From positions 310,001 to 374,000 of the forward strand of contig JAUTCN010000002.1 of the NCBI GenBank assembly GCA_030673965.1: DNA of 64,000 nt, in the 5' to 3' direction. How positions within the stretch are numbered: position 1 is the stretch's first letter; the number at the start of each line of letters is the position of its first letter. The notes below the pieces were generated by a model. It saw nothing but the letters and a program-made list of their open reading frames with translations. It did not search any database and was not told where the DNA came from. Source of the DNA: Fusobacterium sp. JB019. Lineage in GTDB: Bacteria > Fusobacteriota > Fusobacteriia > Fusobacteriales > Fusobacteriaceae. Made by a program: the position numbers and the translations under genes. This document shows positions 46,610 to 64,000 of this stretch, piece by piece.

Positions 46610-46618
46610 ATAACCCTC

Positions 46619-48982
46619 CTACAATAAACTTCTGCTTTTTTTTAATTTTTTAGATATTTTAGATTTTCTAGATTCTAAAGATTCTATATCTATATTTAAT
46701 TCTGCTTTCTGGGTTTTACCATACACCTTCATTTCTATCACTACTTTTTCAGGAATTTTTCCTATTTGCTTTATAGTTAAAGGAATAACTATCTGTTTAT
46801 TTCCTTCAATATTATTAAAAACTTCACTTGCTCCATTATAAGCTAAAGATACTTCCAAGCTATCTATTTCATTTTCATTTATAAGAAGAAGTATTATTTC
46901 ATCTTTTTCATTAGCTGTAACTTTTAATTTTTTAGTTTCTAATTTTATTGGTTTATATTCTTTTATATTTTTGCTCAATACAGCAAAAGGAATCATTACT
47001 TCTTCCATTGCTATTCCACCGTGAGTACATTCTCCGCTTCTAATAGGAGCATATTTTCCTTTGTACATCAAATAACAATATACCTCTTTATTTCTAATAG
47101 TTTCTTTTAAGTAATAATTATTTAACTTATCTCTTGAAATAACATGATACAAATCACTTTTTTGTAAGCTTTCAATTAAAACATTATAAATTTTTTCATC
47201 AAAATATAATCCCGATATTCTTATATATCTTCCATGATTTTCTATCTCTAAATTTTTTTCTTTTATAAAATTTCTAAATTCAATATTTTTTGTATTTTCA
47301 CTATTTATAGCTACACATCCATGATCAGTACAAACTACAACATCAGTATCTTTCTCTTTTATATATTCTAACACTGGTTTCATTCTATGATGAAGTATAC
47401 TTTTTAAATATTCTATTGTTAGATCTTTAGACTTATGAATATTTTCGTCCATTTCTAAAATTTCATATATATTTATATCTGAGTTTTCATCTATATCTTC
47501 AAATTTTGAAATATAATTTACTTTATATTTCATAAAAAATTCTTTAATTTCATCTGCATAAGACATATTTTCATTTATATCATTATATTTTTTACCTGAA
47601 AATAATATTTTTTTACAATGATTAGTAACTGTTGGAATCATACTTAAAATTAAATCATCCTTTTGAACAAAATAATCTAATTTATTAAATTCTTCTTTGT
47701 AACTTGCCCATACATCATATCTTAAGCAATCTACAAAAACTATAAAAACTTTTTTACCTTTTAATAATATTTTCTTTATTTCTTCTAATTTATAACTCAA
47801 CCCTTCTTTAATTTCAGAGCTCATTAATTGATTATAATTGTTTAAAAAATAATTTTGAAATTTCTCATCGATATTTAACCATTTTTTCTGAATATTTATT
47901 CTAATATTATTTAATTCAATTTTATATTTTTTTTCACAATCTTTTATTATCTTTTCAGTTTTATCATCACTTAAATCATTATTTAAAATAATATATTCTT
48001 TTTTAAAGAATTTTTTCCAATTTTGTAAATCTTTAATATTTTCCATTTCAAAATTGATATCTATATTTTGAATGGCTTCTACTCTTTCTAATAGTCTTTT
48101 TATTAAAATTTCTTCTGGAAACTTTTCTAAAAACTTTTCATAACTTATTTTTTTATTTTCAATATCCAAGTTTTCATTAAAGTTTTCTAAAAATTTAGCT
48201 ATAAAAAATGTTTTCTCAAAATTTAAGTAGCCAGACACTCCATTTAAATACTCATTTTCATTATAATTTATAAATAAAGGTAATTTTTTATAGTTTTCTT
48301 CTAATTTTTTTTCAATTTTTTCAAAATTAATATCTTCTAATGCTTCCAAAAATGCATTATTTAATTCTTCATTTTTTTTATAAAATTTATAACTTTCTTC
48401 AACTTCATCCCAAATCCCAAATATTCTATAATTAATTTCAAAATATTTTGAAAAAATATAACCTTCTAATAATTTTTCTTTAAATATTGTTGGATGTTTT
48501 AAAAATAATTTTTGCATTTCTTCAGGATAATTTTTAAGATAAATATTTTTGAAATTTACTAATAATTCTGAATTAGAAAATGAAATATTTTCTAAAACAT
48601 TTAACAACTTAAATATATTTTTTTCTTCTTGAAAATGATATCTAATTAAATCTCTATCAAAATTTTTATTTCCTTGACTTAAATCATAAAATTTTTCAAA
48701 ATTAGTTATTCCTAAACTTTTCATTTCATCTATAGTAATTTCTAATTTTACCTTAGGAGATTTTTTTTCTACAACTACTCTAGTATCTTCTTCTAAATCA
48801 AGAAAAAAATTAAATAAGCTTTCCTTTTTTATCACTATTTCCATAGCTTCATCTCTATTTTTATATCTTTCATATAATTTTCTAGCTTCTAAGTAGGAAT
48901 AGAGATCTTTCACTTCTATCCCTATTCCCTTTACTTGATAATTAATTCCACTATCTTTTATTAAATGTATTATTGTCCTCAC
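46619..48982 (-). CDS. pglZ: PglZ alkaline phosphatase-superfamily protein
   Basis: A 787-aa protein and the signature component of BREX/Pgl systems. The C-terminal PglZ domain has VFIVFVDCLRYDVW (metal ligand D418), MIPTVTNHCKKILFSG with the presumed nucleophile threonine near 451, VVVCTDHGCVAI (D553, H554) and CTHGGIAMEEVMIPFAVL. The N-terminal 400 residues are helical and poorly conserved. The start is a GTG directly after the stop of the ATPase gene, with no gap, so translation is coupled. PglZ is thought to control the modification complex. Confidence 0.92.
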   Translation of the reverse strand: MRTIIHLIKDSGINYQVKGIGIEVKDLYSYLEARKLYERYKNRDEAMEIVIKKESLFNFFLDLEEDTRVVVEKKSPKVKLEITIDEMKSLGITNFEKFYDLSQGNKNFDRDLIRYHFQEEKNIFKLLNVLENISFSNSELLVNFKNIYLKNYPEEMQKLFLKHPTIFKEKLLEGYIFSKYFEINYRIFGIWDEVEESYKFYKKNEELNNAFLEALEDINFEKIEKKLEENYKKLPLFINYNENEYLNGVSGYLNFEKTFFIAKFLENFNENLDIENKKISYEKFLEKFPEEILIKRLLERVEAIQNIDINFEMENIKDLQNWKKFFKKEYIILNNDLSDDKTEKIIKDCEKKYKIELNNIRINIQKKWLNIDEKFQNYFLNNYNQLMSSEIKEGLSYKLEEIKKILLKGKKVFIVFVDCLRYDVWASYKEEFNKLDYFVQKDDLILSMIPTVTNHCKKILFSGKKYNDINENMSYADEIKEFFMKYKVNYISKFEDIDENSDINIYEILEMDENIHKSKDLTIEYLKSILHHRMKPVLEYIKEKDTDVVVCTDHGCVAINSENTKNIEFRNFIKEKNLEIENHGRYIRISGLYFDEKIYNVLIESLQKSDLYHVISRDKLNNYYLKETIRNKEVYCYLMYKGKYAPIRSGECTHGGIAMEEVMIPFAVLSKNIKEYKPIKLETKKLKVTANEKDEIILLLINENEIDSLEVSLAYNGASEVFNNIEGNKQIVIPLTIKQIGKIPEKVVIEMKVYGKTQKAELNIDIESLESRKSKISKKLKKSRSLL

Positions 48983-51900
48983 CTACTCACAAAATATTTT
49001 TATTCCTTCATAGCCTTCATTTTTATATCTTTCTAAAAGTTGGTATATTTTATCATTAAACTCATTTAATGTTATCTCTTTTTTTCCAAGAATCATTAAG
49101 TTTTCATTTAATTCTTTTCTCATTTTATCTATTTCAATACTTTTTCCAAATGATTCTTTTTTATCTTCCAAATAATTATTTAATGATTCTTTTATAGAAA
49201 CAATTTTCTCTTTTAAATTATCAACATGTTCATAATTTCCTGATTCTATCTGTCTCATATTTATCATTAAATCAAAGAAATCATCATTATTTTGAAAAGA
49301 AGTTTGGATATCTTTTAAAGAACTTTGATATCTTTGGAATATCCCACTAATATGAGCCTTTTTCTTGCTAAATTTTTCTTCTAACTCTTTTAATTCAGTG
49401 CTAGCTTTTCCCAAAGAATTTATTTTACACATACATCTCATTTCTCCATTTTCTTCTTTACAAGAACATTTTTCAAAACTATCTAATTCTTCTAAAAATG
49501 GTTTTATTGATGCTACATTTCCAAATTTAACATCCTCAAAGTACTTAATTGCCTCTATTTTACCTTTTTCTTCTCTTTCTAACTTTATTTTTAAACTTTC
49601 ATACTCTTCATAATAACTATCATGAATTTTTTTAAATTCTCTATAATAATTTTCCTTTAAACCTTCAGATTTAATTCCTAAGTCTTCTAAAAGCTCCAAA
49701 TTTAAATAATCATTTTTATAATTTTCAAAACTATCTTTTATATCTTTTAAAGTAGATTTAAAAGATTCATATCCTTCTAAATTTTCTATTTTATAATCTA
49801 AGTTACTTAAAATATCTTTCACAAAATATATTCTATTATCTTTTAATTTATTATATTTAAGAATTGTACTTTTTAATTCTTCTATATTTTCTTCATATGT
49901 TGTATTTCTAAATAAATAAGGTAATTCTTCTAGTTCCTTAAACTTTTGTTTATTATCACGTTGTTTTTGAATAGAATTTAACTTATTTGATAAAGTTTTT
50001 AACTTTCCTGTTTTAATCCCATAACTACTTAATTGAATTTCTTTTTTAGAAATTATTTTGTAAATGTCTACCATTTCTTTTGATAATGTTAATTCTACAT
50101 TAAAGTCATTCCTTGAATCTGCTTTTACCTTTTTAGCTTCACTTTTAATTCCATTTATTCTTCCTAATGCTTTCCAAACAGATACCACTTTTTCAGGAAC
50201 ATAAATTATTTCATTTTTTTTCATTTCATAATCTTGAGCTTTTGAACTTAATTTTTTTGTGTTTTCTCTTTCTAGTGGAAGTGGTCTTCCGGTAGCTTTA
50301 TTAACTATATAGGTTCTTCCTAGTTTATTTGAAATAAAGAAATAAAGATCTATTAAAGGTACATTCAAACCATAAGGTGATGATTCTAATATTTTATATT
50401 TTTCAGCAATACTAATCTCTTCTTCTTTTGATTCAACTATATTCATTATTTCTTTTGATAAAGAACTATTATTTTCATTAGGAACTTTAAACTCAACACT
50501 TTCCATATCTACTTTTTCTGTAACACTTATTAAATCTAAAGGTTTTAAAGTAGCATATACATTTTTAGCTTCTTCTGAAGTTCTATCTTTCTTTGAAATA
50601 TCTGCATTACCATCTAAGAATATTTTAATTAATCCATTCAACGGACTTCTTGTATTAAAGTTTTCAACTTTTATTTCATGAGGAAATTTACTATAGAAGT
50701 TATACAATAATTCTTTATATAATGCTATATCTTGCCTTAAATCATCTCTTATTTTTCCTTTAGAAAATATAAATGTAAAGTTTCTTAAATTTGAAAATTT
50801 TCTTAAATACTTATTTCTAATTTTATCTTCTAATTTTCTTCTTCTTTGAACAACTAATTTCTTTATATCTTCATTCTTAGCAATGTTTTCATTATTATTT
50901 TCTAAATTTAATAATGCACCATATTCAATTAATTCTTCTTTATTAAAAACAATTTCTTTCGGCATTGCTAAACAAACATTAGCTTCTAAATCATTCATTG
51001 CTATTTTGTAATCATCAATTATATTATTTTGATTATATTCTTCTTCAAAATTAGGAATTACAAAAAATATTTTTCCATCTACTTCCATTTCTTGTTTCGA
51101 TGATTCTACAATGGCTCTCTTACCCATTTTTCTTAAAGCACTCACTGTAAATATTTCTCCATTTAGTTTTCTATCCATAGGATATAATCCAATACTATAA
51201 TTTAAATTATAATGCTTCTTTATAAATATTCTATCTTCTGCTTTCTCTAATATTTTATCCCTTATAAAATTAGGATTTATTATTTCTTTTTCTTTATTTA
51301 ATAACATTTCTATATTTATTCCACTAGTATTCACAAACATTCTATACTTACCATTAATTTTTTGAATATTTATATGATTTACTGAAGCTACTGGACCTAA
51401 TTTTCTCTCAACTTCTTCTTCATTTGATTTTTGATATAAAGTTGCAAAATCACTTGCAGTAAACTCAGTTTTATTATTACTTTTTACTAAAGAGTTTGAA
51501 TAAGCTAATACTAAAGCCTTAGCATAATTTATTAAGTCCTCATCTTCTCTTACTTCATTATATATTTGGTTAAATTCTTTCACTAAATTTTTGTTTCCTT
51601 GTTCTATTTCTTTTTCAAAATAATCATAAAGATCACTTAATGTTATTAAATTTATTTTCCCATTTTTCTCAACAGGTTCATTATAGAATTTTCTTCTAAT
51701 AACTTCTTCTAAAAAAGTAAATGTTGTTCTTGTTTTTTGAGCATATTGGTTACTTATTGGCTCTAAGAAAGCTGCTGTTGCAGGATGCAAAGGATAAAAA
51801 TCCATTAATTTTCTATTGAATTTATCTTCCGCTTCATGCACAAAATTACTATATTTATAAAATAAATCTTCTATTTCTAGTTTATCTTTTATTTCAATAG

Positions 51901-52933
51901 TACTTTTTAATAACTCTTCTCCTTGATTAAAACTAAGAACATGCCCTCCAAATCTTCCAAAAACTTTATCTAACATATCTTTTTTACTGCTATCATATTT
52001 CCCTACCATTTGAACTATGTCTGTATGTGTAGAGGCAATAAAGGAAACATCAATATTAGTAGATTTAGATGTTAACTGTGCTATATTTTGAATTTGACCT
52101 AAGTCTTTATTTAATCTATTATTTTCCATTGATGCACTTATATAAGCTGAAAATTCATCAAAAATAATAATTAATTCATCATAACCTTGTTCCTTTAAAA
52201 CATCATTAGCATCTTTTAAAAAATCTTCTAGCTTATCTAGTTCTATCTTTGGTAAAAAGCCAAGTACTTCTTTAGCAATTTCTTCAAATTGACTTATTCC
52301 CTCTCTCTTATGATGAAATAAATTGGCTTCTACATCTCTAATTGTATAATCTTTCATTAATAAAAAATCTTCTATCTTATTTCTATTAGCTCTAACTACT
52401 CTATCAAAATTTTCCATTGTTTCTTTATATACACTAGACAAAGAAATATCTTCAAATTTTTCTTCCAATGCTCTTGTTACTTCTGATTGTATTACATCTT
52501 TAAAATCTTTTTCATTTTCATTTTCTCCGTTTATACGAACAAGAAAATATTTCTTATCTTTTCTTATTAAATTTAGTTGATATTGTAATTCTGGAAAATT
52601 ATTAAATCTAGAAATTAATTCATCTGCTAAACGACTATTTTTCATTTCTAAAACAACACTTAACATCAATAAAAAATAAGATTTCCCAGTACCATATTGT
52701 CCTGATAATATATGTGCTCTTTTCATAGATGGATTTATATCTTGCAGTTTTGCTCTTCTAGTACTACTTCTTACCATAGTAATACTTTCTAAAATATCCA
52801 CAAAAATTTCTGCTAAATCCTCTGTCATTATATAATTTGCTAACAATCTTTCTTGCTCATTTATATTTCCTGCCCATTTTAAATTTATTACAGGATCAAA
52901 ACTTTTTAAATTTATTAATTCTTTAATCAGCAT
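48983..52933 (-). CDS. brxC: BrxC/PglY-like giant ATPase
   Basis: A 1316-aa P-loop protein. The AAA-like ATPase core is at the N-terminus: Walker A in ILSGQYGTGKSYFLL (about 78-85) and Walker B in LIIIFDEFSAYI (about 255-263), followed by a helical part and, past residue 900, coiled coils. A cysteine cluster (CSCKEENGEMRCMCKIN, near 1160) could bind zinc. BrxC/PglY proteins of 1100-1300 aa carry the same core and are essential for BREX. It overlaps the small P-loop gene by 11 bp and is joined to pglZ. Confidence 0.88.
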   Translation of the reverse strand: MLIKELINLKSFDPVINLKWAGNINEQERLLANYIMTEDLAEIFVDILESITMVRSSTRRAKLQDINPSMKRAHILSGQYGTGKSYFLLMLSVVLEMKNSRLADELISRFNNFPELQYQLNLIRKDKKYFLVRINGENENEKDFKDVIQSEVTRALEEKFEDISLSSVYKETMENFDRVVRANRNKIEDFLLMKDYTIRDVEANLFHHKREGISQFEEIAKEVLGFLPKIELDKLEDFLKDANDVLKEQGYDELIIIFDEFSAYISASMENNRLNKDLGQIQNIAQLTSKSTNIDVSFIASTHTDIVQMVGKYDSSKKDMLDKVFGRFGGHVLSFNQGEELLKSTIEIKDKLEIEDLFYKYSNFVHEAEDKFNRKLMDFYPLHPATAAFLEPISNQYAQKTRTTFTFLEEVIRRKFYNEPVEKNGKINLITLSDLYDYFEKEIEQGNKNLVKEFNQIYNEVREDEDLINYAKALVLAYSNSLVKSNNKTEFTASDFATLYQKSNEEEVERKLGPVASVNHINIQKINGKYRMFVNTSGINIEMLLNKEKEIINPNFIRDKILEKAEDRIFIKKHYNLNYSIGLYPMDRKLNGEIFTVSALRKMGKRAIVESSKQEMEVDGKIFFVIPNFEEEYNQNNIIDDYKIAMNDLEANVCLAMPKEIVFNKEELIEYGALLNLENNNENIAKNEDIKKLVVQRRRKLEDKIRNKYLRKFSNLRNFTFIFSKGKIRDDLRQDIALYKELLYNFYSKFPHEIKVENFNTRSPLNGLIKIFLDGNADISKKDRTSEEAKNVYATLKPLDLISVTEKVDMESVEFKVPNENNSSLSKEIMNIVESKEEEISIAEKYKILESSPYGLNVPLIDLYFFISNKLGRTYIVNKATGRPLPLERENTKKLSSKAQDYEMKKNEIIYVPEKVVSVWKALGRINGIKSEAKKVKADSRNDFNVELTLSKEMVDIYKIISKKEIQLSSYGIKTGKLKTLSNKLNSIQKQRDNKQKFKELEELPYLFRNTTYEENIEELKSTILKYNKLKDNRIYFVKDILSNLDYKIENLEGYESFKSTLKDIKDSFENYKNDYLNLELLEDLGIKSEGLKENYYREFKKIHDSYYEEYESLKIKLEREEKGKIEAIKYFEDVKFGNVASIKPFLEELDSFEKCSCKEENGEMRCMCKINSLGKASTELKELEEKFSKKKAHISGIFQRYQSSLKDIQTSFQNNDDFFDLMINMRQIESGNYEHVDNLKEKIVSIKESLNNYLEDKKESFGKSIEIDKMRKELNENLMILGKKEITLNEFNDKIYQLLERYKNEGYEGIKIFCE

Positions 52934-53387
52934 CCTTTTTCCTCCAAATAATAATATTTTCTTCTGGTAATTTACTTTTTTCTAATATATTTTCAAGCTT
53001 CATTTTTTTTATATTTGAAATAATAAAAATTACTTTACCAGTATAAGCTTGCATTATCATACTATCAAAAAATTTCTTTAATCCATTTTCATTTTTTTCT
53101 AAATTATAAAGTATATTTTGAACAAATTCTAAATTATCAATCACTACTATTCCCCTATTGTAATCTATCAGTCGCTCTATATATTTAAAGAAAATTCCTA
53201 TCTCAAATAAAGTTAAGCTAAGCATTTCTTTATCAAAAAATTTCTTTGCTTCCTCTAAAAAATTGATATACTTTATATTTTCTATTTTTAATAATTCTTT
53301 AGTTTTCCCGCTTCCTACTTCTCCTAAAAGAATATAAGATTTTATTCTTGAATTATTATTTCTTATAGCTTCTATAATATTTTTCAT
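52923..53387 (-). CDS. Small P-loop ATPase, BrxF-like
   Basis: A 154-aa protein with Walker A in YILLGEVGSGKTKELLK and Walker B in GIVVIDNLEF, then a C-terminal NIIIWRKKDAD. Small ATPases of this size accompany BrxC in some BREX types (BrxF in type 3, BrxD elsewhere). The frame extends upstream to 53417, but GGAGG sits before the ATG at 53387, which is preferred. It overlaps the giant ATPase gene start. Confidence 0.7.
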   Translation of the reverse strand: MKNIIEAIRNNNSRIKSYILLGEVGSGKTKELLKIENIKYINFLEEAKKFFDKEMLSLTLFEIGIFFKYIERLIDYNRGIVVIDNLEFVQNILYNLEKNENGLKKFFDSMIMQAYTGKVIFIISNIKKMKLENILEKSKLPEENIIIWRKKDAD

Positions 53388-53403
53388 AAAAGTACCTCCA
53401 TTT

Positions 53404-54216
53404 TTAGGCTTCTTCAATTATTCTATTCAATATATCTTCTTTAGTTATATTTTTCTTTATTCTTATTTGATTTAGTCCTGCTCTTTTTTCAATTTCAATT
53501 AAATTTAGAGCTTGTATTTCAAGGAGAGTTTCTTCTATTGCATCTGCATTCATTAAAAACATTCTTCCTAAATTATATTTTTCATTAATTATGTTGGTAA
53601 TTTCCATAGCTGTTTGACCATCTTTCCACATATCATAAATAATATATGCTCCTACTAATGGTTCTATCCAATACGAATGAACTTCTACAACTTCATCTTT
53701 TTCATTTTTATTTGTTTTCTCTAATATGCCCATTTTACCAAAGCCTGATTGTGAATCTATTAAAGTTTTAAATGCTGAGCTTATAAATTTAGGATATTTA
53801 GGATCTGCTCCTATTTTAATAAGTTCACTTTTTATTTTTTCTAAGCTTATCGTATTTTCATAATCAAATACTGTATTATAAAATAATTCATTAACTAATG
53901 TTGAAAAATAATAATGCCCATCATTTTCACTTGAATAAGGATCTCTTAATAAATGATATAACATTAACGGCTCTAAATAATCATCACTTTCTTTTAATCT
54001 TATATATGCTTCTCCTAAGTTTGTTAATTTTAAGTTTAGTCCTATTACTTCTATCGATCCTATATACTTTAACCACTGAATAAATGTTACTATTCTATTT
54101 TCTCCAGCTCCTGTTACATCTTTTAATCCTTCTTTTGTATTTACTCCACTTTTTATTTTTTCTAAAAGTAATATACAATAGTTCACTTCAAATTTAAATC
54201 CTTGCTTTGAATTCAT
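53404..54216 (-). CDS. DUF4007-like winged-helix protein (second copy)
   Basis: A 270-aa protein. Its middle reads VTGAGENRIVTFIQWLKYIG, then LTNLGEAYIRLKESDDYLEP and LMLYHLLRDP, which parallels the DUF4007 protein at 58340-59206 (ELGIGSVMVLSLKFWLTSLD, DPYFQNNNTLWLLHSYI). The C-terminus contains another helix-turn-helix-like segment. It precedes the small ATPase and the 1316-aa ATPase, as the other DUF4007 protein precedes the 1134-aa ATPase. The relationship is my own alignment by eye. It may act as a specificity or DNA-recognition subunit. Confidence 0.65.
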   Translation of the reverse strand: MNSKQGFKFEVNYCILLLEKIKSGVNTKEGLKDVTGAGENRIVTFIQWLKYIGSIEVIGLNLKLTNLGEAYIRLKESDDYLEPLMLYHLLRDPYSSENDGHYYFSTLVNELFYNTVFDYENTISLEKIKSELIKIGADPKYPKFISSAFKTLIDSQSGFGKMGILEKTNKNEKDEVVEVHSYWIEPLVGAYIIYDMWKDGQTAMEITNIINEKYNLGRMFLMNADAIEETLLEIQALNLIEIEKRAGLNQIRIKKNITKEDILNRIIEEA

Positions 54217-54236
54217 ACATCTCTCCCTTGAAAATT

Positions 54237-54935
54237 TTATTTTAATATATTCATTTCTAAATTTTGAAATTTTTCTATTTGGTTTTCTATTTTTAAATAA
54301 AGAGGCTCTGTTAACTCCAAATGATTTTTTTCAAAATAACTTTCAATATCATAATTTCCTTTATTTAATTGTTTTAGAAATTCAATCATTCTATAATTAT
54401 TAAGCTTTTTTAAAACATATAAATTTCTCTTAAAAAAAGAAAGAAAATATTTATTAAGCACCAGCTTTTCTGTTTTCTTTTCAAAAGAATAAATAGTTCC
54501 GTTAAAATCATTATATAAAGCTCCTAGCACATTAATTTTTAAAATTTTTTTTGTTTCAGTTATATAATCAAGTTTTACAAAATAAGACAAACTATTAAAA
54601 TTAATATTTTTTAAATTATAATCTTTTTTTGTTTTTTCAATAATAATTTCTTGACTAGATTTATAAGATTTTCCGTTATACATAGTTATTTTTAAATTGT
54701 TATTATTTTTAAAATCCCAATACTTTTGAGCAAATTTTATTGAAGCAATCTCAAAAATATTAATTTCATCAGTTTCTACAGAACTCTCAAGTAATGATTC
54801 ATATAGCAATATTTTATATATAGTCTTCATTACTGTCTTTTTCGAAAAAAACTTCTTATGTTTTTCCCATAGTTCATAATCAGTTAAACAATTTTTTTTA
54901 ACTTCACCTTCTTTTAAATCCCATCCACTCATCAT
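54237..54935 (-). CDS. Unrecognised 232-aa protein in the BREX-like operon
   Basis: No family is recognised with confidence. The N-terminal third (TVMKTIYKILLYESLLESSV, INIFEIASIKFAQKYWDFK) is helical and resembles N-terminal domains seen in some HNH-type nucleases, but no HNH motif, metal site or P-loop is visible. The start ATG overlaps the stop of the 1134-aa ATPase gene (ATGA), so it is translationally coupled to it. It carries many lysines and is probably cytoplasmic. Confidence 0.6.
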   Translation of the reverse strand: MMSGWDLKEGEVKKNCLTDYELWEKHKKFFSKKTVMKTIYKILLYESLLESSVETDEINIFEIASIKFAQKYWDFKNNNNLKITMYNGKSYKSSQEIIIEKTKKDYNLKNINFNSLSYFVKLDYITETKKILKINVLGALYNDFNGTIYSFEKKTEKLVLNKYFLSFFKRNLYVLKKLNNYRMIEFLKQLNKGNYDIESYFEKNHLELTEPLYLKIENQIEKFQNLEMNILK

Positions 54936-57900
54936 TCAGCTCCTAACAATATCTCTGTTAATATTTTTTTCTTTTCCTCTAAAGGAATTGATTGTCCCAT
55001 ATTCTTAACTGCTGATTCTAACTTCTTTTTTAAAAGCTTTCCATGCATAGTTTCTTTTAGTCTCATGTCCACACTTATATTTTTATTGTCATATTTTATA
55101 TTAATTGTCCCTCTTGTGATTTCTTTATGACTTTCTCCTTCTTTTTTAGATTCTAAAATAAACTTTTCTTTAAATTCTTCTACATCTTTTTTGTTTCTCC
55201 AATTTTCATAAGAAAATCCCTTTATTCTTTCTGTTATTTTTATTAATATTTCTTCATCTCTATAATCTTCTAAAGTTAAAATATATTTTTCTATTTCATT
55301 TAAATTTTCTTTAGTCTTTAACATTTTTATTAACTCTTTAAAACTTTTATTTATACCAAGAGAACATATAATAAAATTAGTAAGTTCATTTCTAAAATTT
55401 ACTTTGCACTTTTCTAAATTTTCTAAATCTGTTTTCATTTTTTTAATTAATTCTAATAAATTATATTCTTTATATACTTTAGGAATCGCTCTTAATGTAA
55501 ATTCACGTCCATTATTAACACTAAAAATTCCTGAAAATAATTTATTCATCATTTTGTTTTCTCTTAAAAAGATTCCATTCATATATCTTGGCAAAGATAT
55601 TATATAATTTTTCATTCCTGCTAAAACTCTATTAGCAATTGTATTTTTATTTTTAGGAATATATAATTCAAATATTTCACTTAATTTTTTGACATATTCT
55701 ATTTCTTCTTTTCCCATAGAATAATAACTTATTTCATAACGTTTTGGATTTTTTTCTATATCATCTAATATTTTTAAATCTAGTTCAATTTCTCCTTGAG
55801 TTGCCTTTAAATTTAATCCTATAAACTCACTATTTTCAATAAATAATAATCCTAAAATAAATGTAAATATTCCTTTTCTTATACCATATTCTCCCAAGTT
55901 TGATGTATACTTTCTATATATATCCCCTAAATTTATTTTATTTAGCTTTATGTCTTCTAAAACCTCTTTATAAACTGAATAATATATACTTCCATTTAAT
56001 TTTATTTGACCTAACTTATATATATTTTGATTTTTAAGTAAGATTCTAGCCACACTTCCCTCTGCTGTAGTCTTATTAAAATAACTTTCATCAGTTAATA
56101 TTTCTTTATTCTTTAATTTTGTTAAAATATCATATCTTGCTTTTTTCATAGGAAAACTCAGATTATTTTTATTAATTAGTTCATAATTAACTCCTATATA
56201 TTTAGTGTATTTATTCTTTAAATATTTAGTTGTAAAATCCATTAAATTTAACTGATTGTACTTTAAGTCTTTATCTATAATTCCATTTAAAAAATAATCA
56301 TTAAGTTCATCAGTTAGTTTCTCTAATACTTCTTGTTTGAAAATTTCTAACTCACTTTTTAAAACTCCTTCTGTAGAATATTTTTCATCTTTAGCAAATA
56401 ATATTTTTATTGTTTCTAATTCTTTTAAAAGATCCAATATTTCTAAATTTTTTCCATATTCATTGCTTATTAAAACTATCTCTTTTTTTAATAACCTATT
56501 TTTTATCTCTTGATAGTTAACATTTCCTTCTATATTTGTTAAATATATTATCTTTCCATCTTCTGTTTCATTTTTCATTATCTCATCTATTTTACTTAAA
56601 TAGCTTACATCTAAATAATATCTTCCCATATACCTAGTTATATTATTCTTATCGTTATATTCCAACGGATAATAAGCTTCTCTATTTAAATTTTCTTCCA
56701 AAGTTTCCATATAGTCAAAATTACCTAATTTATTTTCTATATAATCTTTTATCTCTTTATCTACATTTACATCTATATCCTCTACTAATTTATAGTGATT
56801 ATAATGTTTTCTATAACCTAATAAATTTTTTGACTTTAATTTATTTACAATCTTATCTATATTTTCTATGTTTAAAATTGCCTTCATTACTTCAGGAGTA
56901 GGTTCTAATTCAGAAAATTTATTATATATATATATCATGGCTAAAGATTTTATAAATTTTCTTTCTAATTTTTCTTCTGGCTTTAAACTATTTAATAAAT
57001 TTTTCGAATTTATATATACTTTATATTCACTGCTTTCATTTGATAAAAATTTAAAATTATCTTTAAAATATTCATATAGACTATCTAACCCTATAAACTT
57101 ATCCGTTGTATTTAAGATAGTATTTTTTAATCCTTTTTCTTCATTTCCACAAATATAAGCAAATAATGATCTTTCATTTTGAGCTAATTTTTGAGATAAA
57201 TCCGGAAGCATATTTGCTCCTATGTAATCTAGTGGATAATATCTTTTTACGCATTCTTTTGCCTCTCCAGAAAGCATTCCTGTTTCTTTTAATAAAATTT
57301 CTTTTCTTGAAAATTCTTCAAAATTATTTTTTCTATATTCTTCATAATTTTTTTTCAAAAGAATATCTTCTAAAATATCCATTACGTTTATTTTTTCATA
57401 AGAAAGATGTTCTTTTAAAAACCTTCCACTTACTTTTTCCCATTCATCTAAATTTTCTTTACTTTTTAATTTGTTAGTATATTGAAAAACATCTTTATGA
57501 GTTATCATAAATAAGTTAGAACTATTGTCTTCATTACAATATTCTGCCATATCTTGAATTTCTTTTACATCAATATTGTTTATTCCTGTCTCTAAATATC
57601 TTCCAAATTCATCAAAAATATAAATAACACCATCATATCCTACTTCAATAGCTTGCTTTTCTACATCACAAACTAATTCCTTCATGCTAGAAGTCTTTTC
57701 TAAAGATATAAATTTTTCTCCTGCAAAAATTTCTGAATATATTTCAGAAAAAATATTTATAGCTTTTTCATTCTTTTCTTTTAAAAATCTAAAAAATTGA
57801 TCTTCTAATTCTTTTTCTTTTAATTTACTAATAAATAAATTATAAGTTTCATTATGATTTAGTTTCCATTTACTTATTTTTCCTTCTATGATTTCATAAT

Positions 57901-58336
57901 TAGTAGATAAATTTAATTTAATATTTCTATTTTTAACAGCTCTATATACACCTAATAAAATTGATTGCCAATAATTATCCCCATTATCATCCCCAAAAAT
58001 TATTAAATATTTTTTATTTCTATATTTTTTTAAAATATTCTCTATATTATATTTTTTATTGCTTTTCATTAAAAAAGAATTAAAATTATTTATATTAAAT
58101 CTTTCATCTAAAATATTTAACAAAATAGATATTAAGTATGACTTTCCTGTTCCATAAGCTCCTGATAATAATACAGAACCTTCTTTCTTTTTATCAATCA
58201 TCATTAAAAATTTATCTAATAATTTTAAAGTTTTATAAGATGGATAATAATTATTAATTTTATTCTTATCTTGATAATCAGCTTCTATATTTATGGAATA
58301 TTTATTTGTTTCTAATACATTAATTATATTTTTCAT
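54932..58336 (-). CDS. Second BrxC-like giant ATPase
   Basis: A 1134-aa P-loop protein with the same plan as the 1316-aa ATPase: Walker A in VLLSGAYGTGKSYLISILL (about 59-66) and Walker B in GVIYIFDEFGRYLE (about 222-232), then an ITHKD sensor-like motif. The SG-YGTGKSY and IFDEF motifs are shared by the two proteins, indicating paralogy. The rest is divergent, so duplication is old or the copies were recruited separately. It follows the DUF4007 gene by 3 bp and overlaps the next gene. Confidence 0.8.
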   Translation of the reverse strand: MKNIINVLETNKYSINIEADYQDKNKINNYYPSYKTLKLLDKFLMMIDKKKEGSVLLSGAYGTGKSYLISILLNILDERFNINNFNSFLMKSNKKYNIENILKKYRNKKYLIIFGDDNGDNYWQSILLGVYRAVKNRNIKLNLSTNYEIIEGKISKWKLNHNETYNLFISKLKEKELEDQFFRFLKEKNEKAINIFSEIYSEIFAGEKFISLEKTSSMKELVCDVEKQAIEVGYDGVIYIFDEFGRYLETGINNIDVKEIQDMAEYCNEDNSSNLFMITHKDVFQYTNKLKSKENLDEWEKVSGRFLKEHLSYEKINVMDILEDILLKKNYEEYRKNNFEEFSRKEILLKETGMLSGEAKECVKRYYPLDYIGANMLPDLSQKLAQNERSLFAYICGNEEKGLKNTILNTTDKFIGLDSLYEYFKDNFKFLSNESSEYKVYINSKNLLNSLKPEEKLERKFIKSLAMIYIYNKFSELEPTPEVMKAILNIENIDKIVNKLKSKNLLGYRKHYNHYKLVEDIDVNVDKEIKDYIENKLGNFDYMETLEENLNREAYYPLEYNDKNNITRYMGRYYLDVSYLSKIDEIMKNETEDGKIIYLTNIEGNVNYQEIKNRLLKKEIVLISNEYGKNLEILDLLKELETIKILFAKDEKYSTEGVLKSELEIFKQEVLEKLTDELNDYFLNGIIDKDLKYNQLNLMDFTTKYLKNKYTKYIGVNYELINKNNLSFPMKKARYDILTKLKNKEILTDESYFNKTTAEGSVARILLKNQNIYKLGQIKLNGSIYYSVYKEVLEDIKLNKINLGDIYRKYTSNLGEYGIRKGIFTFILGLLFIENSEFIGLNLKATQGEIELDLKILDDIEKNPKRYEISYYSMGKEEIEYVKKLSEIFELYIPKNKNTIANRVLAGMKNYIISLPRYMNGIFLRENKMMNKLFSGIFSVNNGREFTLRAIPKVYKEYNLLELIKKMKTDLENLEKCKVNFRNELTNFIICSLGINKSFKELIKMLKTKENLNEIEKYILTLEDYRDEEILIKITERIKGFSYENWRNKKDVEEFKEKFILESKKEGESHKEITRGTINIKYDNKNISVDMRLKETMHGKLLKKKLESAVKNMGQSIPLEEKKKILTEILLGAE

Positions 58337-58339
58337 TTA

Positions 58340-59206
58340 TTACTCACTTTCTAATATTCTAGTTATTATTTCTTTTTCTGATATTTCTTTTTTTAAAATT
58401 ATGTTTGCTAATCCTCCACCACGATCAACTGATATATATTCTTTATTTTCTAGCTTTACTAAAAGTTTTTCATATTCATAATGTCTCATTCTTATAATCC
58501 CATTAAATTTTTCATAAGCATCTTTAACTGCTATTTGTCTATTTTTATTTTTTAGAAAATTTCTATTTAATAAAAAATATACTATATACTCTGATATTTC
58601 TTTAGCCATTATATTTCTAAATCTATATTCCCCAGATATATTTTTTTCTAAATAATTTAATCTAATAAAAGGTGAATACATATTATTTTCTGGATCTAAT
58701 TTTTCTTCTTTTTCTTGGTAATACATTTTTATAAAAACATTAATGCTGTCTTTTATACTTTTTTCTGAAAACTTTAATTCATGCTCTTTTAGAAAAATTT
58801 CTACTTGATTTTTTATCTTAGCATAATCAAAATTATTAAGTTTTTTAGATTGTAATATCAGTTTCCATAATAGAAGTACCTCATCTTCATTATCTCTCTC
58901 CATAATATAACTATGTAATAACCATAGAGTATTATTATTTTGAAAGTAGGGATCTTTTTCTAAAATAAGATCTATCCATCTTTTTGTTATATATGTTTTC
59001 TTTTCTTTTTTTATTAAGTCCAGTGATGTTAACCAAAATTTTAGTGATAACACCATTACACTTCCGATTCCAAGCTCATCTATTGCTTTTATATTACTCT
59101 TACTAAAAGCATTATCTTTATTATTATTTTTTATATACTTTATTCCTTTTTGTATCCAGCCTTCTCTCACATAAAAAGAGCTATGACCTACTAATAAATA
59201 ATTCAT
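58340..59206 (-). CDS. DUF4007 family protein
   Basis: A 288-aa protein of the DUF4007 family, often found beside PAPS-reductase-like genes. It opens GHSSFYVREGWIQKG, then has IDELGIGSVMVLSLKFWLTS and LEKDPYFQNNNTLWLLHSYI. A C-terminal winged-helix-like region includes RMRHYEYEKLLVKLENK. It begins 9 bp after brxP. In the operon it probably supplies the DNA-binding or target-selecting part of the sulfur-modifying complex (inference). Confidence 0.85.
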   Translation of the reverse strand: MNYLLVGHSSFYVREGWIQKGIKYIKNNNKDNAFSKSNIKAIDELGIGSVMVLSLKFWLTSLDLIKKEKKTYITKRWIDLILEKDPYFQNNNTLWLLHSYIMERDNEDEVLLLWKLILQSKKLNNFDYAKIKNQVEIFLKEHELKFSEKSIKDSINVFIKMYYQEKEEKLDPENNMYSPFIRLNYLEKNISGEYRFRNIMAKEISEYIVYFLLNRNFLKNKNRQIAVKDAYEKFNGIIRMRHYEYEKLLVKLENKEYISVDRGGGLANIILKKEISEKEIITRILESE

Positions 59207-59215
59207 CTTATTCTC

Positions 59216-60928
59216 CTATTTTTTTATTTTTAAAGCTGACGAAATTAAACATCCTGTTTGAAATCTTGATACACAATTAAGACAATGTACGCACTTATTT
59301 TCATCAATTTTATAACTATTATCCCCAACTGATATTGCCCCAAATTTACATGTTGAATTACAAGCTTGACAATATACACAAGAATTATATTTATTTAATT
59401 GTCTTTTTATTTTTCCATATAAATATCTATCTTTTGTATCTACTAAAGTTATTTTAATTTCAGGATTTTGTTCCCTATAAAAAATTTTAAATAATACTTT
59501 TCCTTCTCTTGAAAGAATATATATTTCTTGTTTATTTCCTTTGTTTGTAAAAATAAGTTTTCCAAATGGTTTTAATAATTCAAAAAGCTCTTCTTGAACA
59601 TTTCTATTTAAAACAAATCTATAACTATTTTTTTCATTAATACATTCTTTACTCTCTAATACAATATTAGAACTTTTTTCTAATCCTGCTCCTCCCTGCC
59701 TTGCCTTCCATTTTCCTTCATTAACATAATTTTTTATCTCTTCAGATAGTTCATTTTTTGATAATTTTTTACCAATACCTTCGTTATAATCCAATATTAT
59801 TTTTTTAGCAAACTTATATAAAAAATTTTCCCAATCATTATAATCCACTTTTAAACTCGGATTAATTTCTTTTAAAACATATAATTTGCCTAATAATTGA
59901 GACCAATCAGAATTATTTGGACAAACCCAACAGCCTACTCTTGAAAAGCCATATCTATAAGAATCATTAAATTTTATCTTTTCTGTTAGCAAATATAGCC
60001 AAATATCAATATCTAACCAATCTATTACTGGCGATGCTACCATTTCACCATGAATTTTAGGAGTTAGATTAATTTTTTCATATTTACTTCTTGCAATCGA
60101 CTCTTTTCTTCTAACTCCATAAAAAGTTAAAAATTTTTCGTCAAAATTTGACAAAGTTGTTCCCATCGGTCCTGTTTTAAATATTGAACAACACCAAGAT
60201 TTAACTCTACTCGGAGGTCCTATTTCTTCACACATTTCAAAAAAATTATTCTCTTCATTTTTTTCTTCAAAAAATGGAGTCATAGGATTGTCAATTTTAA
60301 ACTTTTCAACATATTCATAGGTTTTGGGTAATTCTAGAGTTGTATCCCCAAATATATGCAATATGCTTTGATCATTTAATGCTTTTCTTACTAAATGAGA
60401 TACAGCAGTAGAATCTTTCCCACCACTAAAAGAAACCATTTTGATCCTATCTTTATGCTTTTGTGATACTTCATTTATAAATGGATAAGCACCTATAAAA
60501 TGTCCTTCATTATCTCTCTCTTCTGATTCTAATAAATAATACAAATGTTGATAATTTAATTTTATAAATTTATTAATTATTATTTTTTCTTTTTCAATCA
60601 TTTTATTAGTTTTTTCAAAAGAAAATATTTTAATTCTAAGCTCTTCGATACTTTTAATTTCCTTCATTGCTTTTATATAACTTTTTTTTAACCAGCCTCC
60701 ATCTATAATATATTTACCTAATTTAGTACACCATACTGAGCTTTCATAAATACTTTCCTCTAAAGAAAATAATTCTTTTATTAAATGTTTTTCTTCTAAA
60801 AATACAGGCCTAAGATCAGTTGTTAAATATTCTAAATTATCTGTTTTTATTTTAATATTATCTGTTCTTTCGTCTATAATTATTGGAACTTTTTCTTTAC
60901 TGTTCCAATATACTTTAAATTCTCTCAT
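59216..60928 (-). CDS. brxP: BrxP-like PAPS reductase/DndC-type enzyme fused to a dicluster ferredoxin
   Basis: A 570-aa protein. After an N-terminal domain of about 140 aa comes a PP-loop ATPase domain with SFSGGKDST (166-174), GVRRKES (271-277) and the Fe-S cysteines C246, C247, C333 and C336 in the CC...CxxC layout of sulfonucleotide reductases and DndC. The last 60 residues are a ferredoxin with two four-cysteine motifs, CVYCQACNSTC and CVHCLNCVSRFQTGC. DndC-like enzymes activate the DNA backbone with ATP for sulfur insertion. It is the defining gene of type 4 BREX, and the fused ferredoxin suggests it carries its own electron supply. Confidence 0.88.
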   Translation of the reverse strand: MREFKVYWNSKEKVPIIIDERTDNIKIKTDNLEYLTTDLRPVFLEEKHLIKELFSLEESIYESSVWCTKLGKYIIDGGWLKKSYIKAMKEIKSIEELRIKIFSFEKTNKMIEKEKIIINKFIKLNYQHLYYLLESEERDNEGHFIGAYPFINEVSQKHKDRIKMVSFSGGKDSTAVSHLVRKALNDQSILHIFGDTTLELPKTYEYVEKFKIDNPMTPFFEEKNEENNFFEMCEEIGPPSRVKSWCCSIFKTGPMGTTLSNFDEKFLTFYGVRRKESIARSKYEKINLTPKIHGEMVASPVIDWLDIDIWLYLLTEKIKFNDSYRYGFSRVGCWVCPNNSDWSQLLGKLYVLKEINPSLKVDYNDWENFLYKFAKKIILDYNEGIGKKLSKNELSEEIKNYVNEGKWKARQGGAGLEKSSNIVLESKECINEKNSYRFVLNRNVQEELFELLKPFGKLIFTNKGNKQEIYILSREGKVLFKIFYREQNPEIKITLVDTKDRYLYGKIKRQLNKYNSCVYCQACNSTCKFGAISVGDNSYKIDENKCVHCLNCVSRFQTGCLISSALKIKK

Positions 60929-60946
60929 TTTATCCCTCTATACTTT

Positions 60947-63859
60947 CTAATATACTATTATTATTCCTCTTTCTTGCAATACTTCTTCAACATCATAATA
61001 ATCTTCAACATCTATTTCTTCTTCAAAATCAATAGAATCAATCCATTTACTTTTTACTTTACCTGCTCTTAATCCTTCAGCTAACAAGGTATCAAATGTC
61101 CAAATTTTTTCTACATTTTCAATTGGTGTATTTTGAATTTTTTCTTCTTCTGTATTTTCTGAAATTTCCATATTAATCTCATCAGTATTTTCAATTTTTG
61201 GTAATTTTTCATAATTTTCTTCAGATTTTTTTGATAAATTTTCATTCTTATAAAAAATTTCATTTTCAAATTCATCCCATTTATATAATCTAATTATTTC
61301 ATTATTCAAATAAACCAAATAAAAATACATTCCCTCTTTTATTCCTACATTTGAAAAAACTTCTGATATTCCTTTTATTATAGCTCCCTCTTCTCTATCT
61401 GATATGTTTAACTTATATTCTAAATCTTTATATCTTAATAATATTTGTGAAAATAATTTATATACAAAATATTCTCCTAAATTTAACCCTCCATTTATTA
61501 TTATATTTTCTTTATTTACGCAATGTAAACTTACTAATTTTCCATTCTTTTTAAACTTTCCTTTATTACAAGTTCCTACTTTATTTTCCATACTAGCTTC
61601 TATTCTATTTTTAGAAATATAGTATCTTTTACTTAACTCAAAATTATCTGCCCATTCTTTTAAAGCTAACTTCCCACGGCTATATGAAAAAACTTCTTTT
61701 GGCATAGAAGCTAATGCTTTTAGTGTAGTGTTATTCGCTCTTGTTTTTTCACTTATATTCTCTACTATTTCTTGTATAGTAGCTGGTGCTCTTTTTTCTC
61801 TTAAATAAGCAACAGTTAAATCAGCTGTATAAATATGTCTTTGACCTCCCCATTTCGTTAATCTATAAATACCTGTAAAAACTCTTGTAAAAATTTTATC
61901 TTCTAATTTTATTATTATATTTCTAAAACTATTATTTTCATTATAATACTCATTATATAAATCTGCAGCTTCTGCTAGTTTTAATTCCCTTTGTTCTACT
62001 TCAAAAACCATTTGTAATTTATCTATCATATTTATATTTTTATTTGAGTACATAACTAAATTTTTACATTTGCATATTTTTTTACTATTTTTTATAATAT
62101 TACTAATAAAATCTTCTGATTTTATTCCTATTTTTTCAAATTCTTGTTTAAATTTATCAAAAGTTATTACTTTTTCTTCTATTCCTTTTAAATTTTCATA
62201 TATATCTTTTTCTTTTATTAAGCTATAATAATTTTCGAAATAAATATTAACTACTTCTTCTTTAAAAAGTTCATATATTCTAATAATCTCTATTATTTTT
62301 AATTTATCAAAAGCTTTATATTTTCTTATTTCTTTTTCTAATTCATTTTTTGTTAAAACTTTATTTTCATTAAAAATATTATCTAAAATATCAAGATAAC
62401 TATTTATACTTTTTTTCTTATGTAATTCTAATTTCCCTTTTACTTTAATTTCTATTTGGCGAACTCTTTCTCTTGTTACCCCAACATGCTTTGCTGCTTC
62501 TTCTAAAGTCATCCTTTTAAGCAATCTAAGTTTAAATACTTTCTTTTGAGGATCAGTAAAAGTTTTCATTATATCTATAATTTCTAAAACTAAACTATTT
62601 TTAAATTCAGAATATTTTAAACTTTTTCTATTAACATAACGATAAAAATCTACACATTTAAACTTTAAAGAATTATTTAAAATTTCTTTTATTACTATTT
62701 TAGATATTTTTTCCTTATATAACCATAATTTTTCTTCTATTTCTTCTACACTTAAAGGTTCATTTCTTAATAATACCAACAAAATTTTCTCTACCTGATT
62801 AATGTTAAATGCTACAGGAGCTTCTTCTTCTATTATTTTCATTGCTTCTATTATTTTTGCCAATTCATCTTCTAAAGTTGTTTCTTCTATTTTTTTATAA
62901 ATTTTATTATCTATCACTTTATATTTTTTTCTTATACTTTGAAGATATTCTTCTAAAGTACATAATATTTCTATAAAATTTTTATCTGCTCTAAAAAATT
63001 TATTGTTTTCTCTTAAATATCTATCTAATTCTTTTCTATTTATAGACTTTGATTTTAATTTATCTACTAAAAGATTTTCTATTACTTTATAAGGCAATTT
63101 TTTTATATCTCTATCTATTATTAAAGCTCCTAAAAGAGGTTTGAAAAAAATATTTTTATTACTAGCAATGTAAAATAACTTATTATTTTTGACTAATTTT
63201 TTTGATAAAATATAAGGCATACACTTTAATATTTCTTCTACTTCTTTTCCAGCCTTTGATCTATTTTCCGCTATATGATTAAATCTTAATGAAACTCCTG
63301 TTTTCAATATAAAGTCTATTACATATTTTTCTATATCTTCTACTTCATAATTTATTTTATTTGTTCCTAAATTTTCATAAGCAGTAAATATTTTTGTTTC
63401 TTCTTCTTTTTCTATTTTTTGTTTTATTTCTTGCCTTGTTTCTTTTTCTATTTTTTTATTTTCATGTCTATTTTTATCCCTATTATATATTTCTTTGTAA
63501 ATATTAAATATTTTTTCTTTCTTTTCTTGATCCGATTTATATTTATCAAATAAATTTTTTATTTCTAAATCTGATAATCTTATAAAATAATGACGATTTA
63601 TTCTACTTATAATGTTATCCTTATCTTTTATACTTTTATAAAAATTCATAAAATGAGTTTTACAAACAAAAGAATTTTTTTGAATCTCAAAAATTTCTTT
63701 TTTTTCTAATAACCATTCTTTAACTTTTTCTTTAGTATATTCAATACAAAAACTAGCATGAATTCTTTGTTGAACTTCATCAACAGTTATTAACTTATTA
63801 TTTCCTATTACATCATTTTTTATTATCGTTTCTAAATACTCCCTACATTCCTGTTTCAT
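60947..63859 (-). CDS. 970-aa multi-helix-turn-helix protein with a sigma-70 region 4 domain
   Basis: The protein has several predicted DNA-binding modules. The central one, about residues 433-482, reads FTDPQKKVFKLRL then MTLEEAAKHVGVTRERVRQIE, which is the region 4.2 helix-turn-helix of primary sigma factors. Winged-helix segments resembling HARE-type domains lie near 20-65 (VDEVQQRIHASFCIEYTKEK) and 690-760 (TADLTVAYLREKRAPATIQE). There is no sigma region 2, so it is not a working sigma factor. The C-terminal 120 aa are acidic. It may recognise target sites, regulate the operon, or sense phage transcription. It precedes brxP by 18 bp. Confidence 0.75.
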   Translation of the reverse strand: MKQECREYLETIIKNDVIGNNKLITVDEVQQRIHASFCIEYTKEKVKEWLLEKKEIFEIQKNSFVCKTHFMNFYKSIKDKDNIISRINRHYFIRLSDLEIKNLFDKYKSDQEKKEKIFNIYKEIYNRDKNRHENKKIEKETRQEIKQKIEKEEETKIFTAYENLGTNKINYEVEDIEKYVIDFILKTGVSLRFNHIAENRSKAGKEVEEILKCMPYILSKKLVKNNKLFYIASNKNIFFKPLLGALIIDRDIKKLPYKVIENLLVDKLKSKSINRKELDRYLRENNKFFRADKNFIEILCTLEEYLQSIRKKYKVIDNKIYKKIEETTLEDELAKIIEAMKIIEEEAPVAFNINQVEKILLVLLRNEPLSVEEIEEKLWLYKEKISKIVIKEILNNSLKFKCVDFYRYVNRKSLKYSEFKNSLVLEIIDIMKTFTDPQKKVFKLRLLKRMTLEEAAKHVGVTRERVRQIEIKVKGKLELHKKKSINSYLDILDNIFNENKVLTKNELEKEIRKYKAFDKLKIIEIIRIYELFKEEVVNIYFENYYSLIKEKDIYENLKGIEEKVITFDKFKQEFEKIGIKSEDFISNIIKNSKKICKCKNLVMYSNKNINMIDKLQMVFEVEQRELKLAEAADLYNEYYNENNSFRNIIIKLEDKIFTRVFTGIYRLTKWGGQRHIYTADLTVAYLREKRAPATIQEIVENISEKTRANNTTLKALASMPKEVFSYSRGKLALKEWADNFELSKRYYISKNRIEASMENKVGTCNKGKFKKNGKLVSLHCVNKENIIINGGLNLGEYFVYKLFSQILLRYKDLEYKLNISDREEGAIIKGISEVFSNVGIKEGMYFYLVYLNNEIIRLYKWDEFENEIFYKNENLSKKSEENYEKLPKIENTDEINMEISENTEEEKIQNTPIENVEKIWTFDTLLAEGLRAGKVKSKWIDSIDFEEEIDVEDYYDVEEVLQERGIIIVY

Positions 63860-63893: not shown

Positions 63894-64000
63894 TTATAAA
63901 ATTTCTTCTAATACTTCGATTAATTTTTTAAAATCTTTTTCTCTCGTAAAGTATGAAATTGAAAATCTAATAGTTCCATTTTCATCAGTTTTCATATGTT
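63894..64000 (-). CDS. Cysteine desulfurase (IscS/NifS/DndA type), C-terminal fragment
   Basis: Only the last 34 codons are in the window; the gene continues beyond the right edge. The visible end is HMKTDENGTIRFSISYFTRE followed by KDFKKLIEVLEEIL and a stop. The G-x-(I/V)-R-(F/I)-S and Y/F-T-x-E-x-D pattern is the usual C-terminal signature of class V aminotransferase-fold cysteine desulfurases. It lies 34 bp upstream of the 970-aa protein gene in the same orientation. It would deliver sulfur from cysteine to BrxP. The catalytic cysteine and PLP lysine are outside the view. Confidence 0.7.
   Translation of the reverse strand, partial: HMKTDENGTIRFSISYFTREKDFKKLIEVLEEIL

Follow-up and report, generated by a model that had tools for sequence, protein, structure and literature searches.

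Results

The brxP gene run

The window, i.e., the whole stretch of 64,000 nucleotides analyzed, carries a run of minus-strand genes around a brxP gene. The following features were found, from left to right:

45218–46609, minus strand: BrxL, 463 aa (Pfam BrxL_ATPase E 2.5e-92; NCBIfam TIGR02688 E 3.9e-126, over cut-off)
46619–48982, minus strand: PglZ, 787 aa (Pfam PglZ E 2.3e-10)
48983–52933, minus strand: second BrxC/DUF6079-like ATPase, 1316 aa (Pfam DUF6079 E 1.9e-9, BrxC_BrxD E 4.3e-6)
52923–53417, minus strand: small NTPase-like protein, 164 aa, possible STAND/BrxB counterpart on a weak match (best Pfam nSTAND_NTPase5, E 0.044, under cut-off)
53404–54216, minus strand: second DUF4007/SspB-like protein, 270 aa (Pfam DUF4007 E 5.7e-13)
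54932–58336, minus strand: SspC-like AAA+ ATPase, 1134 aa (PADLOC SspC E 2.7e-66)
58340–59206, minus strand: SspB/DUF4007 protein, 288 aa (Pfam DUF4007 E 9.5e-52; PADLOC SspB E 5.4e-35)
59216–60928, minus strand: brxP, PP-loop sulfurtransferase-like protein with a C-terminal 2[4Fe-4S] ferredoxin, 570 aa (ORF; PADLOC BrxP)
60947–63859, minus strand: 970-aa protein directly upstream of brxP, with sigma-70 region 4 (Pfam Sigma70_r4 E 6e-9) and weak winged-helix matches
63894–64000, minus strand: 3' end of a cysteine desulfurase, 375 aa; the gene runs past the right edge (contig C2:373894–375021; L101, L107) and was assigned by sequence identity to the desulfurase of L097

Downstream of brxP the order is SspB, SspC, a 232-aa gene, the second DUF4007 gene, the 164-aa NTPase-like gene, the second BrxC/DUF6079 gene, PglZ and BrxL. 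Upstream, the 970-aa gene and the desulfurase are preceded by a 126-aa helix-turn-helix gene, which heads the run beyond the window. At the junction between brxP and SspB (59195–59230), SspB starts 9 bases past the BrxP TAG stop, in the same frame and three codons apart, and a Shine-Dalgarno-like AGGAG overlaps the stop. BrxP and SspB/DUF4007 are separate, in-frame genes here, in contrast to the single fused protein of the long family form described below.

The desulfurase at the window edge is 43% identical to the one in the BrxP operon L097 and 34% identical to those in L058 and L015; two further desulfurase-like proteins encoded in this genome are 33% and 24% identical to it. The 970-aa protein resembled NCBIfam MzaA weakly (E 9.6e-10, far under cut-off), and a profile search found it, apart from the window's own copies, only at L009 (genome G043).

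Domains of BrxP

The match to the PADLOC BrxP profile spans almost the entire protein (E 4.5e-83, residues 19–568) and is better than that to the SspD profile (PDLC02782, a short form lacking the ferredoxin; E 1.4e-13). Scores with the DndC model TIGR03183 (24.1 bits, cut-off 290.4 bits) and with the APS/PAPS reductase models TIGR02055 (47.7 bits, cut-off 235.3 bits) and TIGR00434 (47.2 bits, cut-off 165.1 bits) all stayed under the curated cut-offs. The NCBIfam PRK13795 models matched residues 147–555, ferredoxin included (E 1.2e-51). The PP-loop motif FSGGKDST is present, and an AlphaFold2 model was confident throughout (mean pLDDT 94.1, pTM 0.91). It is near certain that this is a BrxP/SspD-type enzyme; its initial annotation as a BrxP-type PP-loop protein agrees with the BrxP match and with the PAPS_reduct match of its core. 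Within brxP we distinguish:

59249–59380, minus strand: two-cluster ferredoxin domain, residues 517–560 (NCBIfam FdxA family; all eight cysteines kept by each of the 105 intact BrxP rows)
59384–59656, minus strand: alpha+beta linker domain, residues about 425–515, with C429 (secondary structure of models)
59915–60439, minus strand: PAPS_reduct/PP-loop core, residues 164–338 (Pfam E 5.9e-31)
59921–59932, minus strand: C333-x2-C336, the remaining half of the core cluster motif (all 105 intact rows)
60188–60193, minus strand: C246-C247, first half of the APS-reductase-type cluster motif (C246 in 105, C247 in 103 of 105 intact rows)

The tail cysteines are arranged as C517-x2-C520-x2-C523-x3-C527 and C546-x2-C549-x2-C552-x7-C560; in the second motif, the spacing ahead of the final cysteine is long and varies among relatives. 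Single Pfam Fer4 models all remained under cut-off on this tail (best E 7.6e-4). The NCBIfam FdxA family matched residues 515–554 (E 1.1e-9), although below the cut-off that this family has for whole proteins. The solved clostridial ferredoxin 1fdn was matched by a profile built from 57 relatives (E 1.5e-6). We therefore retain the initial reading of the two four-cysteine motifs as an added two-cluster ferredoxin. The pattern is not due to chance, since the 57-sequence alignment shows no variation at any of the eight tail cysteines or the four core cysteines, and the eight are kept in every intact relative. As had been proposed, the ligands suffice for as many as three [4Fe-4S] clusters, and three clusters in one polypeptide are predicted from them. 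Modeled alone, linker and ferredoxin reached a pLDDT of 87.3 and gave weak fold matches (best Z 7.2, rmsd 2.2, 81 aligned), mostly in the alpha+beta part, which PMC12839542 assigns as Mog1p/PsbP-like.

The core fold matched the APS reductases 2goy (Z 16.6, rmsd 3.1, 194 aligned) and 7lhr (Z 16.8, rmsd 3.0, 194 aligned), and the fold matches of the protein also include TtuA (Z 13.3, rmsd 3.1, 191 aligned) and NcsA (Z 11.7, rmsd 3.0, 179 aligned). To our knowledge, solved iron-sulfur APS reductases of the 2goy and 7lhr type have no ferredoxin. They act in a different pathway from BrxP, with the same CC...CxxC cluster motif, the W-CC...CxxC pattern that marks iron-sulfur APS reductases (PMC3125206). 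DndC shares with BrxP the PP-loop core, the CxxC and the first cluster cysteine. Four DndC sequences over the cut-off (L125, L126, L127, L129) and the SspD L110, however, have W-C-T in place of W-CC and no ferredoxin, and for DndC a different cysteine, C273, has been predicted as the fourth cluster ligand (PMC12193691). The description of the core as DndC-like, given initially, is true at the superfamily level but, judged by these sequences, false for the cluster motif; the accompanying statement that standard DndC has only the core cysteines agrees with the lack of a ferredoxin in the DndC, and SspD, sequences fetched. The core motif itself is not entirely fixed, i.e., C247 is replaced by His in L134 and L135, long BrxP proteins of methanogens with a three-cysteine core and all eight ferredoxin cysteines.

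Survey of BrxP relatives

Relatives were gathered by similarity to the window BrxP or to a BrxP profile with the ferredoxin. As query and profile contain the ferredoxin, this sampling favors fused forms. Peptide patterns from the core were also used as query; unfused homologues surfaced, and none of them falls on the BrxP branch of the core tree described below. The collection comprised 109 BrxP rows, named genome-contig relatives included, of which 105 were intact; set aside as damaged were L046 and L059 (contig ends) and L076 and L045b (sequence diverges ahead of the ferredoxin). Left out before counting were L001 (same as L010), L014 (DUF4007 only), L068 (in pieces), L074, L091 and L165 (incomplete), as well as the repeats L174 (of L019), L112, L114 and L119, and L115–L118, L120 and L122, whose genomes were already counted.

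In the window's phylum, 13 of 98 genomes matched the BrxP profile, although in one of them (L014) the match is confined to DUF4007. The phylum around L019 gave matches in 34 of 398 genomes, and 30 loci were read. Among the matches listed for the methanogen class, 6 of 119 genomes carry a long, DUF4007-fused BrxP (about 770–790 aa, one 695 aa). For the 251 genomes of the Ktedonobacter locus's phylum, a threshold of E 1e-50 was too strict, with no match even in the genome of L058, and does not imply absence.

BrxP occurs in two kinds, a short one with a separate SspB (84 intact, window included) and a long one fused to DUF4007 (21 intact). Both retain the full set of ferredoxin cysteines, and the ferredoxin fusion, as read from these rows, is general in the BrxP family as sampled. 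A core tree of 102 rows, which omits about 47 near-copies and others and has several very long branches, grouped the BrxP rows on a single branch (SH-aLRT 100), where every intact row has the ferredoxin and the window protein falls among the short forms. L088 is a BrxP, and the ferredoxin of L172 contains an insertion. The archaeal L086, L087 and L089 (453–501 aa) are marked as desulfurase-fused in this tree by number range only. L078 (Methanoculleus) and the similarly long L079–L085, L090, L092 and L093 are PP-loop proteins of about 860–970 aa; by eye, L078 ends in a cysteine-desulfurase-like half, a kind described in PMC6286981.

Outside the BrxP branch, L123 (Thermoprotei) also has an eight-cysteine tail. 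Because of this tail, of the archaeal PRK13795 models that include a ferredoxin and of the very long branches, the fusion may be older than BrxP; the same observations undercut a single origin of the fusion, which we had considered.

Most of the named hosts of BrxP relatives appear to be anaerobes, from the gut or elsewhere. The BrxP of Ktedonobacter sp. SOSP1-85 (L058), which we take to be an aerobe, has a complete ferredoxin too, however. If the strain is indeed aerobic, the fusion is not confined to anaerobes; we therefore rejected the ferredoxin as a marker of anaerobes, and the initial view of the architecture as suited to an anaerobe is not supported. Five unannotated human-faecal phage records (MT835506, MT835493, MT835963, MT835511, MT839469) encode BrxP relatives, two of which cover over 99% of the query.

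Cysteines outside the ferredoxin were compared as well. Four N-terminal cysteines form a zinc-ribbon pattern in 72 of 87 short-clade rows; at the corresponding residues 9–28 of the window protein they are gone, as in the whole of its clade. C429 was a candidate for a universal persulfide cysteine, being present in 73 of the 74 first sequences; it was abandoned when none of the 21 intact proteins of the long clade proved to have a cysteine at this column. In the short clade it is found in 84 of 84 intact rows, and there C429 is a possible persulfide carrier. Among the 105 intact rows, no cysteine outside the cluster motifs was common to the whole BrxP family. A separate persulfide cysteine cannot be universal, since ahead of the ferredoxin L162 has only the four core cysteines and L134 only three. 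The persulfide path within the enzyme suggested initially is thereby weakened as a family-wide mechanism. As the cluster ligands are the only cysteines common to the whole family, the comparison favors sulfur handling without a family-wide thiol carrier, with sulfur held on a cluster or directly on the core cysteines.

Effector genes of the locus

Read together, the genes at 45218–58336 and brxP form a composite defence locus, i.e., a phosphorothioation set (BrxP, SspB, SspC) joined to a second DUF4007, a DUF6079/BrxC protein, PglZ and BrxL. The type-4 BREX gene set (BrxC, PglZ, BrxL, DUF4007) is complete in it, with two DUF4007 and two BrxC/SspC-like genes. Among the phylum's 98 genomes, the second BrxC occurs in two, that of the window and G043, and gene order is the same in G043. 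By eye, the 232-aa gene and the second DUF4007 gene (53404–54935) correspond to a single 457-aa gene in G043 (L096 10417–11790); one of the two versions may be split or fused.

Of the short-form loci, 48 had enough sequence, i.e., at least 6.5 kb, downstream. A desulfurase was present in 44 of these loci, a gene like the 736-aa one of L016 in 27 and a DndD-like gene in 14, where the names PLD-helicase (for the 736-aa gene), DndD-like and DUF262 are readings of sequences and not results of a profile search. PglZ together with BrxL, searched with L058-based profiles, occurred in just one, that of Ktedonobacter (L058). By its relatives, the window BrxP is closest to the ferredoxin-type SspD of Ssp-like systems, yet it is wired to BREX effectors.

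Discussion

BrxP belongs to phage defence and probably inserts sulfur into the DNA backbone. Its ferredoxin domain is real, well conserved and already known. PMC12839542 (January 2026) describes a ferredoxin fusion in the type-4 BREX PAPS reductase and in a subset of SspD and calls its role "unclear"; BREX-4 brxPCZL has also been listed among phosphorothioation gene families (PMC11931770). Being in all 105 intact relatives and in print, the fusion is both universal among the relatives examined and already described, which had been named at the outset as a ground for refutation, and the novelty initially attached to it does not stand.

The type-4 BREX BrxP of PMC12839542 has, like the window protein, a PP-loop core, an extra alpha+beta domain and, after these, a conserved region of the 4Fe-4S ferredoxin type that is rich in cysteines. 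In both, the neighboring genes include BrxL, PglZ and BrxC, and the paper reports a desulfurase in 56% of taxa. DUF4007 is often fused there but is a separate gene in the window, whose second DUF4007 and second BrxC/DUF6079 are extras. The SspD proteins with extra domains, a subset noted in the same paper, are short like the window protein; SspB and SspC are encoded separately, and a desulfurase is mostly present. Most ferredoxin-type SspD-like loci in our collection have other effectors and no PglZ or BrxL, unlike the window. Its second module shares PglZ, DUF6079 and DUF4007 with the BREX-Related Capture (BRC) systems of PMC12839542 and differs from them by BrxL. A HerA/FtsK translocase is universal in BRC according to that paper; among the profile matches of the ten proteins scanned from 45218 to 63859, no HerA/FtsK was named. 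Archaeal PAPS-reductase homologues (PRK13795; PMC6286981, 2018) also resemble BrxP in having extra 4Fe-4S domains, N- or C-terminal, and some have a C-terminal cysteine desulfurase domain instead. Electron transfer was suggested for the extra domains, and no tie to BREX or Ssp operons is described in that paper's account of these proteins.

For the BrxP/SspD-type DNA phosphorothioation enzyme of the window we propose a cycle of four steps. The neighboring cysteine desulfurase would provide activated sulfur. Using ATP, the PP-loop core would adenylate a phosphate of the DNA that is selected together with SspB and SspC. Sulfur would then be taken up by the [4Fe-4S] cluster of the core, at C246/C247/C333/C336, and passed to the activated phosphate. 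The C-terminal 2[4Fe-4S] ferredoxin would deliver electrons of low potential to the core, allowing persulfide-level sulfur (S0) to leave as sulfide. Domains, ligands and partner genes are read from the sequence, whereas the steps, the occupancy of the clusters and the electron role are what we infer. Overall we give this cycle, with the ferredoxin as electron donor, an even chance. The electron role taken alone stands at about the same level, and electron supply is most plausibly, and most economically, the part that the ferredoxin plays. The fused ferredoxin is not needed for phosphorothioation chemistry as such, since the DndC and SspD proteins fetched lack it and their systems make phosphorothioates.

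Sulfur handling on a cluster has a precedent in TtuA, a PP-loop sulfurtransferase in which an open iron of a [4Fe-4S] cluster is proposed to handle sulfur (PMC7138817). BrxP has no obvious open iron site because its core offers four cysteine ligands, except in L134 and L135, where C247 is His. Alternatively, the ferredoxin could be a sulfur relay and not an electron relay, with one of its clusters binding or sacrificing sulfide and handing it to the core. Auxiliary clusters act as sulfur source in some sulfur-inserting enzymes, and both the lack of a family-wide free cysteine ahead of the ferredoxin and the variable spacing to the last ligand (x7 in the window) would suit such a relay. The invariance of all eight ligands, however, is a better fit to fully ligated redox clusters than to an open iron, and we regard a sulfur relay as quite unlikely.

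Unlikely as well is a mainly structural ferredoxin, or one that docks SspB, SspC or DNA, its clusters being folding supports or a redox switch. The TtuA and NcsA fold alignments end at 560–561, within the BrxP ferredoxin. TtuA has a zinc finger at its C terminus, and by this analogy a docking role is possible if the ferredoxin is located where that finger sits. Moreover, most short-clade relatives have a second metal module, the N-terminal zinc ribbon, which was lost in the window's clade, and the pTM of the model would suggest a fixed arrangement. Docking alone, on the other hand, is not expected to keep eight ligands in every intact relative while certain lineages have lost their zinc ribbon.

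The APS-reductase-type core motif and fold, together with the archaeal homologues whose extra 4Fe-4S domains have been proposed for electron transfer (PMC6286981), could also indicate an APS/PAPS reductase of sulfate assimilation that brings its own electron donor and does not modify DNA. We consider this highly improbable, as the gene sits among SspB, SspC, PglZ, BrxL and a desulfurase, matches the BrxP profile so closely and, unlike a core assimilation enzyme, has matches in only a small part of the phylum's genomes. SspA and SspD form a complex (PMC7188994); since, in addition, a desulfurase lies in the gene run and in the loci of relatives, the evidence points to cysteine-derived sulfur destined for DNA and not to sulfate reduction.

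The four-step cycle could be extended to the locus as a whole. BrxP would then be a self-contained reductive sulfurtransferase that carries sulfur only on clusters, has no thiol carrier and receives electrons from its built-in ferredoxin. The locus fed by it would be a composite one for defence, with a modifying half and a PglZ/BrxL killing half that are each equipped with a separate DUF4007 protein and BrxC-type ATPase. We hold this wider reading to be rather unlikely.

For specialists, the fusion itself is no surprise now, and the interest lies in its function. The ferredoxin-fused family offers a direct handle on the route of sulfur into the DNA backbone, a question for DndC too. If the ferredoxin clusters are needed, phosphorothioation in BREX-4 and ferredoxin-type Ssp systems would be reductive, and the input of its electrons would be defined.
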